From Gammaproteobacteria bacterium (GTDB lineage Bacteria; Pseudomonadota; Gammaproteobacteria; Ga0077536), in assembly GCA_009692265.1 (NCBI GenBank), contig SHZM01000036.1, forward strand, positions 1-33,913: a stretch of 33,913 nucleotides of DNA, given 5' to 3'. The first letter of the stretch is position 1, and every line of letters begins with the position of its first letter. The notes beneath the pieces are model-generated. The model made no database searches. It was not told the DNA's origin and was given only the letters and a program-made list of their open reading frames with translations. This document shows positions 22,600 to 30,612 of this stretch, piece after piece. The position numbers and the translations under genes were made by a program.

Positions 22600-25071
22600 A
22601 TGAGACCGACGCTGGTTGATTTCTACGATCGCTTCGTCCTGCAACAGCCGCGGCTGACTTTGTTGATCCTGTGTTTTACGCTCGCGCTGTTCGCGCTCGG
22701 ATTACCACAATTCCGTCTTGATGCCTCCGCTGATTCCCTTCTATTGGAGAGTGACCCCGAGCTAAAGCATTTTCGTGAGCTGTCCAAGCGCTACAGCTCT
22801 CGCGAATTTTTGTTTGTCACCGTCACCCCAAACGAGGACTTATTCGCTCCCACGACGTTTAAGTTGTTGACTGAGCTACGCCAGGCATTGAAAGAATTTC
22901 CCGCGGTATCTTCGGTGGTCACCCTACTTGATGTTCCACTCGTGAAAAACATTCCTGGAAAGCTTTCGGAGGTCGTTACCAAGTACCGCACTCTCGAGTC
23001 ACCCGATGTCAATCTGTATAACGCGCGCAAGGAACTTACTGAAAGCCCGTTGTATCGCAATGTGGTCGTGAGCCCCGATGCAAAAACCACGGCAATGCGT
23101 GTAATCCTGGAGGACGTTCCGGAATTTCGCGCGCTAGAACTAGCGCGCGGTGACCTGCTCTATAAGCGCGCTACCGGCACCTTGGACGCCAGCGAAATCG
23201 CTCACCTGGCGCAAATTGAGCCGCTCTATAAACGCGAGAAGGATCGGGTAGATCTCGCTAACCACGCTGCGTTGGCGGGCTTGCGGGAATTGCTGGAACG
23301 CTTCAATTCACGCGCGGAAATTCATCTCGGTGGGATCTCGATGATCGCCGACGACATGATTTCGTTTGTCCGCGCCGATATTGTCATCTTTGGGATCGGC
23401 GCGATGGTGCTCGCGATCGGCATGCTGGGCTATATATTTCGCGAATTCCGATGGGTGCTGACCCCTATGATCACCTGCGTTTATTGCACTGCGTTGATCC
23501 TCGGTTTACTAGGACACGTCGGCTGGCATCTAACGGTTATTTCGTCCAACTTCATTGCACTTACGTTGATTCTTACGATCTCCATCAACATTCACTTGAT
23601 CGTCCGCTATCGCGAACTTGTGCAAGAACACCCGACCTGGACTCAATATCAGCTTGTTCAAGGCGTGTCCCACGACATGGCGCGTCCCTGCCTGTACACA
23701 TCGCTAACCTCAATCATCGGTTTTGCGTCGCTGGTTACAAGCGATATTAAACCGATTATTGATTTCGGCTGGATGATGACCGTGAGCCTGCTCGTGCTGT
23801 ATTGCGTCGTGTTTACTTTGGTCCCCGCCCTCATGTTGTTGATGAGCAAACGAGAATCACGGACGCATGACGATGGGAGCTTCGGCTTCACCGAAGTGTT
23901 GGCACGCATAACGGATCGACATGGCCGCGCGGTGGTTGGCATCGCCATCGTTATTGCAATCATTAGCGGCCTGGGCGTTACCCGGCTCGAAGTCGAAAAC
24001 AGCTTTATCAGCTATTTCAAAAGTGATACCGAAATTTATCAAGGACTGAAGAAAGTTGACGAAACCCTGGGCGGTACCACGCCGTTGGACATAATCCTGA
24101 AGTTTCCACCGCCGGAAGCCGTGGCCGATGAGACCTCTGAAGGTGGTGAGCTTGCCGAGTTCTATGCGGATGAAGAGCCCGCCGCCAAATCGGAATATTG
24201 GTTCACGCCGCAAAAAGTCGACCGCATTAAGCAGGTGCATGACTATCTTGAAAAAATCCCGGGCGTCGGCAAGGTCACATCTCTTGCGTCATTAGTTCGC
24301 GTTGCTGAAGACTTGAACAAAGGTCGTGAGCTCGATCCCTTCGAATTAAACGTTATTTACAAACGCCTTCCCGAGCACCTGAAGCGCGAAATGCTGTCGC
24401 CCTATATTTCCATTGAGGACGACGAGGCTCGCATTTCGCTACGCATTCTGGATTCGACCCCGGGCTTGCGCCGACAGGCGCTCATTGAACACATTCGCAC
24501 CGGGTTGACGACAGATCTTCATCTCAAGACTACGGACTACGAAGTCGCTGGTCTACTCGTGCTCTACAACAACATGTTGCAGAGTCTGTATTCGTCGCAA
24601 ATTCAATCCATCGGCGGCGCAATGCTCGGTGTGGTGCTTACCTTATGTGTTCTGTTCCGAAATATTCGTGCGGCGATTATCGGCGTGCTCCCGAATTTGC
24701 TCGCCGCCATATGCGTGCTCGGCTTCATGGGTTGGGCGGGGGTGCCGCTCGACATGATGACAATCATGATTGCGGCTTTGACGATGGGGATCGCGGTCGA
24801 AGATTGCATCCATTATTTATATCGTTATCAACTCGAATACGCTCGCCTAGGTGACGGATTGAAGACGATGTATCAATGCCACTCAAGCATCGCTAAGGCC
24901 GGTTTCTACACCACGTTAGTGGTATGTGTCGGGTTCTCGATCTTGGTCTTGTCGAATTTTATTCCAAGCATATTGTTCGGCTTGCTCACGACGGTCGCGA
25001 TGACGATCGCGATACTCGCGGCACTAACGTTGATGCCCAAGCTACTGTTAATGTGGCGACCGTTCGGTTAA
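22600..25071 (+). CDS. RND superfamily exporter (MMPL/HAE3 type)
   Basis: An 823-residue transporter with two similar halves. Each has one helix, a large periplasmic loop, then five helices: TM1 at about 17-37, first loop 38-255, a helix bundle at about 258-415 (IVIFGIGAMVLAIGMLGYIF), TM7 near 445-465, second loop to about 670, and a final bundle ending before residue 820. SLTSIIGFASLV and MTMGIAVEDCIHYLYRYQ-like blocks match the MMPL / HAE3 group, which includes hopanoid and lipid exporters. There is no adjacent membrane-fusion or outer-membrane gene. mtoX follows 87 bases later on the same strand. Substrate unknown. Confidence 0.88.
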   Translation: MRPTLVDFYDRFVLQQPRLTLLILCFTLALFALGLPQFRLDASADSLLLESDPELKHFRELSKRYSSREFLFVTVTPNEDLFAPTTFKLLTELRQALKEFPAVSSVVTLLDVPLVKNIPGKLSEVVTKYRTLESPDVNLYNARKELTESPLYRNVVVSPDAKTTAMRVILEDVPEFRALELARGDLLYKRATGTLDASEIAHLAQIEPLYKREKDRVDLANHAALAGLRELLERFNSRAEIHLGGISMIADDMISFVRADIVIFGIGAMVLAIGMLGYIFREFRWVLTPMITCVYCTALILGLLGHVGWHLTVISSNFIALTLILTISINIHLIVRYRELVQEHPTWTQYQLVQGVSHDMARPCLYTSLTSIIGFASLVTSDIKPIIDFGWMMTVSLLVLYCVVFTLVPALMLLMSKRESRTHDDGSFGFTEVLARITDRHGRAVVGIAIVIAIISGLGVTRLEVENSFISYFKSDTEIYQGLKKVDETLGGTTPLDIILKFPPPEAVADETSEGGELAEFYADEEPAAKSEYWFTPQKVDRIKQVHDYLEKIPGVGKVTSLASLVRVAEDLNKGRELDPFELNVIYKRLPEHLKREMLSPYISIEDDEARISLRILDSTPGLRRQALIEHIRTGLTTDLHLKTTDYEVAGLLVLYNNMLQSLYSSQIQSIGGAMLGVVLTLCVLFRNIRAAIIGVLPNLLAAICVLGFMGWAGVPLDMMTIMIAALTMGIAVEDCIHYLYRYQLEYARLGDGLKTMYQCHSSIAKAGFYTTLVVCVGFSILVLSNFIPSILFGLLTTVAMTIAILAALTLMPKLLLMWRPFG

Positions 25072-25158: not shown

Positions 25159-26520
25159 ATGACACTAAAAGCCACTCGCGCGCTACTGGTTTCGGCGCTC
25201 GCAACTTTCACGCTAGGGCTCAGTCCCGTGGTGAGCGCGGATGAAACCTGCTATTCGCCCTACATGGCGAAAATCGTTGGGCAAGAAGATTTCATGTACA
25301 TCTGGACCTTGGGCGTCCAGGGTCTAGGGGACGAACAGGACAAGCTCGTCACAGTCGACGTGAACCCTTCCTCGAAAACCTACGGCAAGGTTACCAACTC
25401 ACTGTCGGTTGGCGGCCGTAATGAAGCGCATCATTCCGGCTTTACTGACGATCGCCGCTTCCTCTGGGCCGGTGGTCTGGATACCAGCACCATCTTCATT
25501 TTCGATGTGCATAGCGATCCGGCGAAGCCGAAACTGGTTAGAACCATTACCGATTTCGTCGCTGCCACGAAAGGCGTGGTCGGGCCTCATACGTTTTACG
25601 CAATGCCGGGCCGGATGTTGATCACTGGTTTATCGAACAACCAGGATCACGGCGGCCGCTCGGGCATGGCCGAATACAGTAACGAAGGCGAGTACCTCAC
25701 AACCCACTGGATGCCGACCGACGACGCCCTCGAAGGTGCCGCGAAATCAGGCAAGATTGCGGACGGTTATAGCTATGACGTCCGCGTCCAACCCCGCTTG
25801 AACGTCATGTTGACGTCGTCGTTTACGGGTTGGAACAATTACATGATGAACTTAGGCAAGATGATGGGTGACGCCGAAGCCATGAAGCGCTTCGGTAACA
25901 CCGTGGTGGTGTGGGATCTCCATACTCGTAAGCCGAAGAAGATTTTCGATGTGCCGGGCGCGCCGCTTGAAATCCGTTGCGCGTGGGGAGTCGATCACGA
26001 TTATTGCTTTACCACCACCGCGCTGACCTCCAAGATTTGGTTAATTCATCGGGATGGTAACGGCGAATGGCAGGCTAAGGCGGTTGCCGATATCGGCGAT
26101 GCCGCCAAGATCCCGCTGCCTGTGGATATTTCGATTTCGGCCGACGACACCCGGCTATGGGTTGACACCTGGAATGACGGGACGGCGCACTTGTTTGATA
26201 TCTCCGATCCGCATGCACCGAAAAAAATTTACAGCCAGAAGATCGGCGAACAGTTGAACATGGTCTCCCAAAGCTGGGACGGCAAACGCGTGTACTTCAC
26301 GTCGTCACTGCTTGCGAATTGGGACAAGACCGAGGGTCCGGAAGGCGATGTGCAGTACTTTAAAGCCTATGACTGGGACGGCAAAGCGCTGAAGCCTAGG
26401 TTCAATGTGAACTTCGTCGCCGAGAAACTGGGCCGACCGCATCAGATGACGGCTGGCGCCTATGCCTTATTCGCCAAGGCACCAACCGCCGCTAGAACGG
26501 GACTCGCCGCACGCGAGTAA
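25159..26520 (+). CDS. mtoX: methanethiol oxidase, SBP56 family, periplasmic
   Basis: SBP56/MtoX enzymes oxidise methanethiol to formaldehyde, hydrogen sulfide and hydrogen peroxide and depend on copper. The 453-residue precursor has a Sec signal peptide (cleavage after VVSA, residue 27), then CYSPYMAKIVGQEDFMYIWT, VGGRNEAHHSGFTDDRRFLW, GPHTFYAMPGRMLITGLSN and SADDTRLWVDTWNDG, all strong family blocks. The histidine-rich HHSGF and GRPHQM sites are the likely metal region. A perfect AAGGAGGT site ends three bases before ATG, so expression may be high. The SCO1-MauG fusion gene follows after 14 bases. Confidence 0.93.
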   Translation: MTLKATRALLVSALATFTLGLSPVVSADETCYSPYMAKIVGQEDFMYIWTLGVQGLGDEQDKLVTVDVNPSSKTYGKVTNSLSVGGRNEAHHSGFTDDRRFLWAGGLDTSTIFIFDVHSDPAKPKLVRTITDFVAATKGVVGPHTFYAMPGRMLITGLSNNQDHGGRSGMAEYSNEGEYLTTHWMPTDDALEGAAKSGKIADGYSYDVRVQPRLNVMLTSSFTGWNNYMMNLGKMMGDAEAMKRFGNTVVVWDLHTRKPKKIFDVPGAPLEIRCAWGVDHDYCFTTTALTSKIWLIHRDGNGEWQAKAVADIGDAAKIPLPVDISISADDTRLWVDTWNDGTAHLFDISDPHAPKKIYSQKIGEQLNMVSQSWDGKRVYFTSSLLANWDKTEGPEGDVQYFKAYDWDGKALKPRFNVNFVAEKLGRPHQMTAGAYALFAKAPTAARTGLAARE

Positions 26521-26534
26521 TCCATTTCCAGCGC

Positions 26535-28403
26535 GTGCGGAACCGCCTGCTCTACGCGGTACTAGCTAGCTTGCTCATAGTCTCGTGCACGCTAGACGCA
26601 CACGAGGATATGCACGGCGGTACCCAACGTACCGCGCCCGCAGCGGATGGTTTCATAGCGCCGATACCTGGATCGTACGAGCTACCGGTCGTCAGTGCCG
26701 CCGCCGACGGTGCGGTGCTCGACGATACCGGCGCTACCAGCAGCCTGCACGCGATCTATGACGAGCGAATCGTTCTCCTCAGTTTTGTCTTCACCCACTG
26801 CGTTGATCCTGACGGCTGCCCGCTCGCCTCGTTCGTCTTAAGCCAGGTCGGCCGGCAGGTGCTGCGCGATCCCGCGCTACGGTCCAGTGTGAGACTTGTG
26901 ACCTTCAGTTTCGACCCCGTTCGCGATACTCCAGCAGTCCTTGCTGCTTACGCAAAATCATTCCGTCGCCCCGAAATGGATTGGAAATTCGTCACCACCA
27001 AAGATGAAGCCGCGCTTGCGCCGATTCTGGCGAGTTATGGGCAGACGATTCAGCGAGACCCAGACGGTTATGCCTTTTCACACCAGTTACGGGTGTTTCT
27101 GCTCGACTCTCAGGGACAGATTCGCAACGAATACAGCGCCGCCTATTTGCGACCCGAAGTCGTACTGGCGGATCTAAAGACTCTGACCTTAGCGACCCCA
27201 GATCCCACGCCCATCAAGCCACAGTCGCACCTCGCGCGAGCCGGGGACGATAAGACTGGTTACGAAAATCACGATTATCAAACGCAATCACGCGCGATTT
27301 CGGCGCGAGGAGCATTTCCTCGCACTCCGCTGAATTTTGACGCCCCGCCACTCGGCTTACCGCCTTTCTCCGCGCTCAACGGACCGGTTCCCTTGCCCTC
27401 CCATGCGGCGCTTGGTCGGCGACTGTTCTTCGACCGTCGACTCTCGCATAACGACACGATTGCGTGCGCCAGCTGCCACCTCCCTGATCAGGGCTTTACC
27501 AATCAGGAACTGAAAACACCGATCGGGATCGAGGGTCGGTCCGTGAAGCGTAATGCGCCGTCGCTGTTTAATGTTGGCTATCAGCACCGACTGTTCCATG
27601 ACGCGCGCGAATCGCGACTCGAACAACAGGTGTGGGGTCCATTATTGGCGATGAATGAGATGGGAAATCCCGCGGTTGGGTTCGTCTTGGATAAAGTCAC
27701 CGGGCTTGCGGACTACGCAGCCGAATTTGCCAGGGTATTTCCCGACCAGGGGATCACGATGGAGACTCTCGGCGCGGCGCTCGCGGCGTACCAACGTACA
27801 CTCGTCTCCGGCAATAGCGTGTTCGATCGATGGTATTTCGGTGGCGATACCGCGGCACTGGCCCCATCGGCGCAGCGCGGCTTCGAACTCTTTCGCGGCA
27901 AGGCACGCTGTGTCGCGTGCCACACGATCGATAAGACTTTCGCGCTATTAACCGATCGCGAGTTACACAATACAGGTCTTGGCTTTGAGCGCTCGATGCG
28001 CAAGAAGCCGGCCAGTGACGTCATCGTCGGGCCCGGCCTCGTGATGAACCTTAAAGCGGAAGCCAGTGCCGGTCTTAACGAACCGCCCGTCAATGATCTA
28101 GGTCGTTACGAAGTCACCCAGGAGCCGTCCGATCGCTGGAAATTTCGCACGCCGTCTTTACGCAACGTCGCGCATACCGCGCCCTACATGCACGATGGAT
28201 CGCTCGCGACCCTGGCCGATGTTGTTAGGTTTTATAACCAGGGAGGGATCGCGAACGAGGGACTGGATCCTAAGATTGCACCGTTGTATTTAACCAACCT
28301 GGAAATAGGGGAGTTGGTCGCGTTCTTGAACGCACTAACGGGCGACAACCTCGAAGCGCTGACCCGCGATGCCTTTGCGCAGCCGATTGGGGATCGGCAC
28401 TAA
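26535..28403 (+). CDS. SCO1/SenC - di-haem MauG/cytochrome c peroxidase fusion
   Basis: The 622-residue protein has a lipoprotein-like signal (LLIVSC, Cys18) and a His-rich mature start (DAHEDMH). An SCO1/SenC thioredoxin fold spans about 45-215, with FVFTHCVDPDGCPLASFVLS (Cys89, Cys95, spaced CX5C and not the usual CX3C) and conserved His183 in SHQLRVFL. A MauG/CCP domain spans about 255-610, with haem motifs CASCH (311-315) and CVACH (459-463). SCO proteins deliver copper and MauG proteins make tryptophan-derived cofactors or reduce peroxide. Separate genes for both are known beside mtoX, and here they are one chain. GTG start. Confidence 0.9.
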   Translation: MRNRLLYAVLASLLIVSCTLDAHEDMHGGTQRTAPAADGFIAPIPGSYELPVVSAAADGAVLDDTGATSSLHAIYDERIVLLSFVFTHCVDPDGCPLASFVLSQVGRQVLRDPALRSSVRLVTFSFDPVRDTPAVLAAYAKSFRRPEMDWKFVTTKDEAALAPILASYGQTIQRDPDGYAFSHQLRVFLLDSQGQIRNEYSAAYLRPEVVLADLKTLTLATPDPTPIKPQSHLARAGDDKTGYENHDYQTQSRAISARGAFPRTPLNFDAPPLGLPPFSALNGPVPLPSHAALGRRLFFDRRLSHNDTIACASCHLPDQGFTNQELKTPIGIEGRSVKRNAPSLFNVGYQHRLFHDARESRLEQQVWGPLLAMNEMGNPAVGFVLDKVTGLADYAAEFARVFPDQGITMETLGAALAAYQRTLVSGNSVFDRWYFGGDTAALAPSAQRGFELFRGKARCVACHTIDKTFALLTDRELHNTGLGFERSMRKKPASDVIVGPGLVMNLKAEASAGLNEPPVNDLGRYEVTQEPSDRWKFRTPSLRNVAHTAPYMHDGSLATLADVVRFYNQGGIANEGLDPKIAPLYLTNLEIGELVAFLNALTGDNLEALTRDAFAQPIGDRH

Positions 28404-28654
28404 CCGCCCTTGAGGGGTGGAACGAAAACGATTTTATCGCCGTCCTTAATCACGGTGGTGTCGAGCACCGAGTCGACAACGCGATCTCCGTTTTGCATTG
28501 TCATGAACGGGGTCTCCGTGCGAAACCCGAGAGTATTAATGAGCTCGCCTAAGGTATGCCCTTCGGCGAGCTCAAAGTCTTTGTCATCAAAATGCGCGAT
28601 CCCATCGCCTAGAAATTCGCGCATCCATCCGAGAAGCTTGACGTTGACCTGCAA
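28400..28654 (-). CDS. MoaD/ThiS-family ubiquitin-like protein
   Basis: An 84-residue beta-grasp protein with VNVKLLGWMREFLGDG, LAEGHTLGELINTLGF and the C-terminal VFVPPLKGG, ending in the diglycine that becomes a thiocarboxylate sulfur carrier in molybdopterin synthesis. The start I prefer is TTG at 28654, two bases after the AOR stop, with AGGAA upstream. The frame is open further inside AOR, but that part has no family match. Pairing with AOR suggests it supplies the pterin dithiolene for that enzyme. It converges with the SCO1-MauG gene and overlaps its stop region by a few bases. Confidence 0.87.
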   Translation of the reverse strand: MQVNVKLLGWMREFLGDGIAHFDDKDFELAEGHTLGELINTLGFRTETPFMTMQNGDRVVDSVLDTTVIKDGDKIVFVPPLKGG

Positions 28655-28656
28655 AA

Positions 28657-30483
28657 CTAGCTCATTCCTAAGCGTTCCAACGTGGCCGCCGTCGGTTTCC
28701 CGTCTTCGCTCCAACCGCGTTGTTTGTAGTACTCGGGCAGCATTACCTTGAGCTGACTGACGAGACCCTTTGCGACCCCGCTCGGCGCCGGCTCTTCGAG
28801 GATCCGCTTGGGCAAGGTGTCATCCTTCGCGGTTAGTCCCGCCGCCAGATTGAACTGGCGTTCCAGATTCCAGATCCGCTCACCCGTCTCGTTAAGCCTC
28901 GCAACATCCCAGCCCCCTTCGCACGCGCCATCGAGTTGGGTCGCATAGTGCTCCGGGGTTCCACCGGAGTGCGCGGTAAACAGACACAGACCAGAGGCAT
29001 CGATCGCCGCGATCAAGTCCTGGGTTGTGCGGACCACTTCCGGCTTGTCCTTGGTCTCGGTGGTGGTGAAGTCGCTCGCATACGGATTCGCACGGAGGTG
29101 GCAGGCACCCCGGTTACTCGTGGCATAACCCAGGCCCATGCCCTGCATTGCGCGACCATCGTACGCCGCGAACTCTTGGCCTTTAACAGCCATCGACAAT
29201 TCGGGCCGCCCGTATTTCTCAGTGAGCCGTTTCGAACCCATGCCGATATCGCGACCAAAGCCCTCGCCTTTACCCGTCAACTCAGCCATTAGGCACAGCG
29301 CTTCGGCGTTGCCCCAGACGAGATCGACGCCGCCGGTCTCCGCTTTGGTGATCGCACCGACTTGATAAAGCTCCATAGCCGCAGCCAGCGAGCCACCGAA
29401 GGAAATTGGGTCCATGCCATATTCATTGCACAGGAAACCGGCATACGTTGCAGCGTCCATGTCATCGACCCCAACGGCCGAACCCAGGGCATACGCCGTT
29501 TCGTATTCGAGACCGCCGGAGGCTTTTTGGTATTGTGGTTTGTCCTTGACCGAAAAATGTTGGGGATCGATATGCGAGATTCGGCCACAGCCGATCGTGC
29601 ATGAAAAGCAGGCACCGTTTTGAATCAAATTGGTGTGCCCGTTCTCGTTCGGCGACTTCATCGCCTTGGCATTGAGCTTATGCGCACCTTCGAATTGCAC
29701 CTGCTGATTATTCCGCGTGGGCAGCGCGCCGAATGCTCCGGTGACATCCATCATCGCGATGGTGCCGTCAGAGGTCATCCCCTTGCGGCCTTTGTTACTG
29801 GCCAGCGCCGCAGTGGCGATTTTAGCCGCGGCGAAGAACTTCGCGGGATCGTGGAGCTTGACTCCCTTAGTGCCACGTACCGCGATTGCCTTGAGATTCT
29901 TTGAGCCCATTACCGTCCCGACTCCAGAGCGGCCAGCGGCACGGTGGAGATCGTTGACGATGCAGGCGTAGCGACAGCCGTACTCACCTGCTTGGCCGAT
30001 GGAGGCGATCCGGATTAAGGGATCGTTGTGGCGTTGCTTGATCGCAGGCTCGATTTCCCACACCGAGCGACCCCACAGGCCGTCGGCCGATAGTAACTGC
30101 GCATCATCGTCTTGAATGTAGAGATAGACCGGTTGGGACGAACGGCCTTCGAAGATAATTAGATCGTAGCCGGCCATCTTCAGCTCGCCACCGAACTGAC
30201 CGCCCGAATTCGAACTGGCGATCGCACCAGTTAAAGCACCTTTGGTCACTGCTGTCCACCGACCACCAGTGGACGCGATGGTACCAGTGAGCGGCCCGGT
30301 CGCGATCACAAGTTTATTGTCCGGACTTAGCGGATCGACTTTAGGGTCGATCTCTTCCATCAAATACTTGGTCGCCAGCCCGCGTGACCCCAAGTATTGC
30401 TGAGCCCACGCCATGTTGAGCGGCTCGTGAGTGCAGGTTCCGGCAGTGAGATTGACGCGTAGGATTTTCTTTTGCCAGCCCAT
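28657..30483 (-). CDS. aldehyde ferredoxin oxidoreductase family (tungstopterin enzyme)
   Basis: AOR enzymes oxidise aldehydes to acids with a tungsten bis-pterin and a [4Fe-4S] cluster. The 608 residues start MGWQKKILRVNLTAG, include ATGPLTGTIASTGGRW, SSNSGGQFGGELKMAGYDLI and RAAGRSGVGTVMGSKNLKAI, and hold the cluster ligands CFSCTIGC (Cys292, 295, 299) with a later Cys in SGLCLF. ATG at 30483 has GAGGAGC upstream, and the open frame seven codons earlier is not needed. It is the first of two genes with the MoaD-like gene. It diverges from the AlkA-like gene. Substrate unknown. Confidence 0.93.
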   Translation of the reverse strand: MGWQKKILRVNLTAGTCTHEPLNMAWAQQYLGSRGLATKYLMEEIDPKVDPLSPDNKLVIATGPLTGTIASTGGRWTAVTKGALTGAIASSNSGGQFGGELKMAGYDLIIFEGRSSQPVYLYIQDDDAQLLSADGLWGRSVWEIEPAIKQRHNDPLIRIASIGQAGEYGCRYACIVNDLHRAAGRSGVGTVMGSKNLKAIAVRGTKGVKLHDPAKFFAAAKIATAALASNKGRKGMTSDGTIAMMDVTGAFGALPTRNNQQVQFEGAHKLNAKAMKSPNENGHTNLIQNGACFSCTIGCGRISHIDPQHFSVKDKPQYQKASGGLEYETAYALGSAVGVDDMDAATYAGFLCNEYGMDPISFGGSLAAAMELYQVGAITKAETGGVDLVWGNAEALCLMAELTGKGEGFGRDIGMGSKRLTEKYGRPELSMAVKGQEFAAYDGRAMQGMGLGYATSNRGACHLRANPYASDFTTTETKDKPEVVRTTQDLIAAIDASGLCLFTAHSGGTPEHYATQLDGACEGGWDVARLNETGERIWNLERQFNLAAGLTAKDDTLPKRILEEPAPSGVAKGLVSQLKVMLPEYYKQRGWSEDGKPTAATLERLGMS

Positions 30484-30612
30484 AGTTCGCTCCTCGTGAT
30501 TCAATGGTGGTCAGGGCACCTTGGGACATTCTACTGGCTTTAGCCGCGAGTTGAAGCAGCGCGCGCATTCGTTGTTATCATCTGGGCCCCCTAACTCCCG
30601 GCTTGCACCCTT

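Follow-up and report, generated by a model that had tools for sequence, protein, structure and literature searches.

A gene for a methanethiol oxidase (MTO), mtoX, and directly behind it a single gene that joins a SCO1/SenC copper-chaperone domain to a MauG-type di-haem domain lie on contig SHZM01000036.1 from a gammaproteobacterium (assembly GCA_009692265.1; 33,913 nucleotides, hereafter the window). Across related loci, the presence of MauG coincides with two tryptophans of MtoX, Trp225 and Trp334, and with a CX5C motif in the accompanying SCO domain. As a comparative observation, this co-occurrence supports a MauG-driven tryptophan modification of the oxidase and points to the pair Trp225-Trp334. 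Methanethiol oxidation is a main step in sulfur cycling through dimethylsulfide (DMS) and dimethylsulfoniopropionate (DMSP). A tryptophan tryptophylquinone (TTQ) was proposed for bacterial MTO in 2017, and no chemical proof of it was found in the literature. The fusion itself adds little; what is new is a testable refinement of the open cofactor question.

Tryptophans of MtoX that follow MauG

The features of the oxidase gene, all on the + strand, are as follows.

25159..26520, +, mtoX, methanethiol oxidase (SBP56 family, MtoX clade; ATG start, 453 amino acids; NF052453, PF05694)
25429..25434, +, His91-His92, published copper ligands (Ruegeria pomeroyi His88/89); His91 in 56/56 and His92 in 55/56 MtoX-clade rows
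25588..25590, +, His144, published copper ligand (R. pomeroyi His141); 55/56 rows
25831..25833, +, Trp225 (R. pomeroyi Trp223, published TTQ candidate); co-occurs with MauG
26158..26160, +, Trp334 (R. pomeroyi Trp332), proposed partner of Trp225; co-occurs with MauG
26320..26322, +, Trp388 (R. pomeroyi Trp386, published second TTQ candidate); kept with or without MauG
26440..26442, +, His428, published copper ligand (R. pomeroyi His424); 56/56 rows

In a profile search the protein scores 740.2 bits against NF052453, above the curated cut-off of 650, and it matches PF05694 with an E-value of 4e-48. All four copper-ligand histidines are present when it is aligned with the R. pomeroyi enzyme; the ligand role of His88/89 was proposed in PMC5739008 and PMC10936201. 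Copper-dependent oxidation of methanethiol is its predicted activity.

Loci were collected from five overlapping genome sets: 40 relatives (21 positive for mtoX) at an E-value threshold of 1e-50, 369 members of the class (33) and 398 members of the phylum (5) at 1e-150, and 385 members of the class that contains G488 (8) and 158 members of the order that contains G559 (4) at 1e-120. The window's own genome is part of each of the first three sets, and every listed match was fetched. Five of seven plasmid records with an mtoX match were added as named cases; two Azospirillum plasmid matches of about 31% identity were left outside the survey. MtoX had no match in viral contigs. Including the window, 70 loci were classified: 37 carry a fusion (36 intact and the frame-broken L169), 19 have separate SCO and MauG genes nearby, one has MauG alone (L174), seven have SCO with no MauG nearby (L190, L191, L244-L247, L258), four are cut by a contig end (L139, L140, L184, L257) and two are extra mtoX copies without partners (L155, L156).

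Trp225, Trp334 and Trp388 are all present in 58/58 MauG-linked MtoX. The six intact MauG-less proteins read K/F/W, F/F/W and L/F/W at residues 225/334/388, two of each. In the seventh MauG-less locus, L258, the frame is broken, and Trp225 stands in the first part, Phe334 and a retained Trp388 in the second. Over the seven loci, Trp334 is Phe in 7/7 and Trp225 is replaced in 6/7. The first MauG-less loci met, L190 and L191, lack Trp225, and a prediction was set on this before the next loci were analysed. It held: L244-L247, which are MauG-less, all lack Trp225, and L239-L243, which are MauG-linked, all have it. Since L246 and L247 share genera with L190 and L191, only L244 and L245 represent fresh genera.

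A column scan set 59 MtoX (57 MauG-linked, two at contig ends) against the six intact MauG-less ones; it covered neither the extra copy L155, nor the partial copies L156 and L184, nor the later-added L256-L258, whose rows enter only the final tryptophan tally. Seven of the 453 columns share no residue between the groups, and among these only Trp225 and Trp334 are fixed in the 59. Conversely, 80 columns are fixed in the 59 rows, eight of them as Trp, and the only ones changed in all six MauG-less proteins are 225 and 334; Trp49, Trp103, Trp252, Trp304, Trp373 and Trp388 are unchanged in 6/6. A control over 36 clades of 3-20 rows (again without L155, L156, L184 and L256-L258) found 16 columns privately changed in nine clades, and the only Trp losses among them were 225 and 334. 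A MtoX structure modelled from the single sequence, with a mean predicted local distance difference test score (pLDDT) of 41.8, was too poor to give the Trp225-Trp334 distance.

The scope of MauG absence differs between these loci. A MauG-domain search at E 1e-10 found no match in the whole MauG-less genomes G851 and G817, each 99% complete; for the four MauG-less plasmids absence refers to the plasmid only, and for L258 to 14 kb only. The orders of G851 and G817, tried for further MauG-less lineages, contain just two and one genomes. Outside the MtoX clade, 20 loci of SELENBP1-type SBP56 proteins have no SCO or MauG within the approximately 5 kb fetched per side (less at two contig ends). These proteins carry Pro/Tyr at the 225/334 columns, and the aligned examples have a Trp three columns before 225. 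The Trp388 column is W in 17/21 SELENBP1-type proteins (the 20 without SCO or MauG nearby and one inside the fusion-bearing L165). PMC5739008 describes its TTQ tryptophans as conserved in all three domains of life, so that paper may mean other positions.

Some loci show further peculiarities. L155 (G001:C83) is an additional, partnerless MtoX copy whose genome holds a normal mtoX-fusion pair elsewhere; it keeps Trp225, Trp334 and Trp388, and its Cys31 is replaced by Arg and copper ligand His92 by Gln. In L190 and L246, plasmids of two Skermanella species, an opposite-strand gene for a cobalamin-dependent protein and a PhoX-family phosphatase gene lie just after mtoX and the CX3C SCO.

The fusion protein and its CX5C motif

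The second gene and its features, also on the + strand, are the following.

26535..28403, +, SCO1/SenC-MauG fusion gene (GTG start, 622 amino acids, 14 bases 3' of mtoX)
26586..26588, +, possible lipobox IVSC, Cys18 (simple pattern match; unconserved in the family)
26748..27122, +, SCO1/SenC copper-chaperone domain, residues 72-196 (PF02630, E 2e-14; phmmer matches to Sco structures)
26799..26819, +, Cys89-X5-Cys95 motif (C-x-D-x-x-G-C-P); CX5C, where generic Sco has CX3C
27081..27083, +, His183, third metal ligand position of Sco (opposite the conserved Blr1131 His in an alignment; His in 75/78 SCO rows)
27177..27326, +, low-confidence linker, residues 215-264 (pLDDT < 50)
27402..27842, +, MauG/CcP (cytochrome c peroxidase) di-haem domain, Pfam core residues 290-436 (PF03150, CCP_MauG, E 1e-48; homology to about residue 617)
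27465..27479, +, haem c motif 1, C311-A-S-C-H315
27597..27599, +, His355, in the column where CcPs have Trp (H in 43/55 and W in 1/55 MauG open reading frames, ORFs)
27909..27923, +, haem c motif 2, C459-V-A-C-H463
28233..28235, +, Tyr567, corresponding to Tyr294 of MauG (CcPs have Met; Tyr in 54/55 MauG ORFs)

A preliminary description of this DNA, made from the letters alone, had proposed one 622-residue chain with SCO1/SenC and MauG domains 14 bases after mtoX, and the ORFs and Pfam matches, above the cut-off for both domains, confirm it; the domain identity is well supported. It had also asked for confirmation in related genomes that no stop or boundary lies near residues 225-255. The frame is open from 26535 to 28403, with zero internal stops and none in that region, and 35 other intact fusions occur in the fetched genomes, a set that includes several close relatives. 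Because of these, chance and assembly error are excluded, and a frame or assembly artefact was ruled out. The suggested search for such fusions next to SBP56 genes returned the 37 fused loci among the 70. The implied novelty does not stand, however: fusions of SCO1 and MauG adjoining mtoX are described in PMC5739008 and PMC6548844, and an architecture that is already in print and common was rejected as new.

In the AlphaFold model most of the haem domain is confident and the SCO part, where a thioredoxin fold is expected, is mixed to low, with pLDDT < 50 at residues 20-86, 88-94, 120-126, 143-148 and 174-182; the underlying alignment is shallow over the SCO part, its remaining rows being haem-domain proteins. 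Export of the fusion protein is likely from inspection of its N-terminus. The predicted lipoprotein status held in part: the lipobox pattern is present in the window, but it is not a family trait, occurring in only 4/36 intact fusions and missing from four others of the same genus (L137, L141, L148, L149). On this simple pattern scan, membrane anchoring as a trait of the family is unsupported.

The SCO domain scores 53.9 bits against PF02630 (gathering cut-off 22.8). The preliminary description correctly read the site (Cys89/Cys95) as CX5C and not CX3C; the motif is shared among loci. The pattern C-x-D-x-x-G-C-P is found in 56/56 SCO adjoining mtoX in MauG-bearing loci, fused or separate, a count without L174, which bears MauG and no SCO. 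In L140, cut by a contig end, the incomplete SCO is also CX5C. The row of L243 was not alignable in the residue tally, and its motif was seen in the locus itself. The SCO of all seven MauG-less mtoX loci are CX3C, as are 14 other SCO genes in the surveyed loci. A peculiarity of the window was therefore rejected, and CX5C is, among the sequences compared, a signature of the MauG-linked SCO group and a subfamily variant. No earlier report of the CX5C signature, or of the link between Trp225/Trp334 and MauG, was found in the openly licensed literature. One further SCO-like frame exists in the window's own genome (L002, G000:C56:4015-4368; 36% identity to fusion residues 78-197).

Fused and separate forms were compared on a MtoX tree of 72 rows, built by a quick method with SH-aLRT (Shimodaira-Hasegawa-like approximate likelihood ratio test) support only, rooted on six SELENBP1-type rows and excluding L156, L184 and the later-added L256-L258. 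At least three fused/split changes are required with L169 taken as fused and L174 left out; labelling both as split raises the number to five, and three is preferred. Fusion or fission thus probably recurred during the evolution of the locus, judging from the tree. Since the two forms interchange, fusion itself probably changes little. In four loci (L135, L165, L180, L182) a complete separate MauG gene lies downstream of the fusion; two of these loci (L180, L182) show divergence of the fused haem domain at about residues 355-376. L135 and L174 belong to the same genus: the former has mtoX, the fusion and an extra MauG, the latter mtoX and MauG with no SCO nearby.

The mtoX-linked haem domain

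The residue counts for the haem domain come from 55 MauG ORFs (the window and L135-L188). Only one ORF, a piece of the broken L169 gene, lacks Tyr in the Tyr567 column. In alignments this column holds Met in CcP 4aal and other CcPs and Tyr in 6e1c; for MauG 3l4m the aligned range ends with 296 at query residue 569, which puts Tyr567 opposite residue 294 by range, not by letters. The inter-haem tryptophan of MauG, Trp93, is missing in the window, where His355 occupies the CcP Trp column.

A wider-family alignment of 34 di-haem proteins was drawn from a contig scan with the haem domain (33 of the best 80 of 133 matches, plus the window), and Trp is nearly invariant in its His355 column. Because the column is mostly His in the mtoX-linked ORFs against this near-invariant Trp, the mtoX-linked haem enzyme looks like a distinct subfamily, to go by its residues. 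No SCO or MtoX ORF was present in the best 80 of the 133 loci matching the haem domain only.

The fusion scores below the cut-off of both relevant NCBIfam profiles: 226.5 bits for TIGR04039 (MbnH family; cut-off 362.85), its best match, and 194.7 bits for TIGR03791 (MauG of methylamine dehydrogenase; cut-off 443.85). A TIGR03791 search at E 1e-110 matched 0/299 genomes, and no control genome was positive either; the P. denitrificans mauG was not found in two stretches of NC_008688 chosen at an estimated position. Foldseek ranks 6e1c first for the haem domain, followed by CcPs and MauG chains, and the titles of its matches name Y294H MauG and Y463M BthA variants.

Proposed maturation of MtoX and alternative explanations

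It is fairly probable that an exported MtoX is served by an exported one-chain maturation factor, whose SCO part would provide copper and whose haem part would oxidise tryptophan. The SCO domain, through Cys89, Cys95 and His183, would deliver copper to the four-histidine site of MtoX. The di-haem domain, with the tyrosine ligand of MauG and not the methionine of CcPs, would be oxidised by peroxide and would then oxidise MtoX side chains. The likeliest targets may be Trp225 and Trp334, yielding a tryptophan-derived (TTQ-like) cofactor or another oxidised Trp near the copper. Mature MtoX would finally oxidise methanethiol, as published for other MTOs. In this proposal the two parts share a chain because they serve one client; the fusion would unite functions encoded elsewhere as neighbouring genes, and a flexible linker would let the domains work in turn. 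That MtoX is the client is suggested by gene order, by published induction and by the tryptophan pattern; the chemistry is inferred. The preliminary description had copper loading and haem-based maturation acting together on MtoX at the membrane: a joint role in maturation is likely, and action of the haem domain on MtoX gains new comparative support from the tryptophans, although we still infer it, but the membrane location leans on the unconserved lipobox pattern.

A more specific version is possible though somewhat doubtful. According to it, the haem domain builds the cofactor from Trp225 and Trp334 and not from the published pair (R. pomeroyi Trp223/Trp386); periplasmic MTOs would be a further natural class of MauG-type substrates, matured by one copper-loading protein, and the MauG-less alphaproteobacterial branch would run a cofactor-free, copper-only version of the enzyme. 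The published alternative, a TTQ built by the MauG partner from Trp225 and Trp388, is quite unlikely. Both residues are present in the window and named in PMC10936201, and PMC5739008 places TTQ near the copper, but Trp388 is retained in MauG-less MtoX and in most SELENBP1-type proteins; it therefore does not follow MauG, and Trp334 does.

Two other roles for the haem domain deserve consideration. In the MbnP family, copper binding depends on kynurenine. By analogy, an MbnH-like haem domain might oxidise one or both tryptophans singly (e.g., to kynurenine) and so make or tune a copper ligand with no cross-link. The closest structure, 6e1c, is titled "MauG-like protein associated with microbial copper homeostasis", and TIGR04039 is the best family match, though below cut-off; two tryptophans and not one track MauG, however, and the published copper ligands are four histidines, which makes this option rather unlikely. 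A peroxidase that clears H2O2 made by MTO and leaves MtoX unmodified is unlikely. The haem domain is homologous to bacterial CcPs, and H2O2 production is claimed for Methylophaga MTO and SELENBP1 (PMC6548844, PMC10362175), but Tyr replaces Met at the haem-ligand position in nearly all ORFs, the co-occurrence of Trp225 and Trp334 is left unexplained, and the MTO of R. pomeroyi, with a separate MauG in its operon, and those of two other Rhodobacteraceae are reported to make no H2O2 (PMC10936201).

The tryptophan pattern could also reflect hitch-hiking: loss of MauG and, independently of it, change of two tryptophans within a single ancestral lineage. All six intact MauG-less proteins fall in one clade (SH-aLRT 99) and therefore represent one event, with no independent contrast. 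MauG may have been lost in this clade or gained later elsewhere, the outgroup branch being long. Hitch-hiking is nevertheless a fairly unlikely account: both changed fixed columns are Trp when only 8/80 fixed columns are (a probability of about 0.009, taking columns as exchangeable), residue 225 has drifted among K, F and L, and no other of the 36 clades loses a fixed Trp.

Besides the single clade, several observations weigh against MauG-dependent maturation. The CcP Trp column is mostly His in the mtoX-linked ORFs. L258, MauG-less within 14 kb, retains Trp225 in its broken frame. SELENBP1-type SBP56 proteins are too distant for a clean test of the link between tryptophans and MauG. MTOs from three species (R. 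pomeroyi, R. denitrificans, R. lacuscaerulensis) break down methanethiol when produced in E. coli from pET28a, and the excerpts of PMC10936201 on them mention no partner gene; recombinant human SELENBP1 and worm SEMO-1 were reactivated by copper alone (PMC10362175). MauG is therefore not needed for all activity, and a strict MauG requirement is doubtful. Enzymes of the branch that naturally lacks MauG (Skermanella, Microvirga and others) allow a direct comparison centred on residues 225 and 334, not on 225 and 388.

Neighbouring genes

Convergent with the fusion gene (28400-30504, -) are genes for a MoaD/ThiS-like protein and an AFOR-type aldehyde:ferredoxin oxidoreductase (AOR). Formaldehyde is a product of MTO, yet the MoaD/AOR pair is near mtoX in only 1/69 fetched loci (L148, same genus); the pair was therefore rejected as part of the system. 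Upstream, 87 bases 5' of mtoX, lies a gene for an MMPL/HpnN-like resistance-nodulation-division transporter (22600-25071, +), a homologue of which occurs in 13/69 fetched loci, ten at 48-76% identity. Further away, a 181-residue protein matching the urate oxidase N-terminal domain PF06181 (13169-13714, -) adjoins an aspartate/ornithine carbamoyltransferase gene, and the window contains the gene order surE-pcm-nlpD-rpoS, which suggests a gammaproteobacterial host.

Comparison with known systems

The di-haem protein of PDB 6e1c, of the MbnH type, is the best match in sequence and fold and shares the Tyr at the ligand position; it has no SCO domain, the window protein falls under the TIGR04039 cut-off, and its partner is MbnP and not MtoX. 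MauG of methylamine dehydrogenase (PDB 3l4m) has the di-haem fold and the Tyr294 position in common with the fusion, which nevertheless lies under the TIGR03791 cut-off and has His355 at the CcP Trp column. Generic Sco1/SenC proteins (e.g., Blr1131, 4wbj) share the domain, the cysteine pair and the His ligand; their motif is CX3C, in contrast to the CX5C of the window.

Among the mto clusters, those closest by published description, their sequences not having been compared, are the two of Methylophaga thiooxydans. In each, one SCO1-MauG fusion gene with predicted export lies directly 3' of mtoX; both fusion genes are induced on dimethylsulfide and their products were proposed to process MTO (PMC6548844). 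The gene cluster, copper and a proposed TTQ were published in PMC5739008. The Methylophaga clusters also contain tlpA-like, pdo and sqrB genes, whereas the window has the MMPL transporter upstream and convergent moaD/AOR genes downstream. The operon of R. pomeroyi DSS-3 (SPOA0269-0271; L189) shows the same order as the window, a CX5C SCO and a MauG-type domain about 52% identical, but there SCO and MauG are encoded by two genes rather than as one chain.

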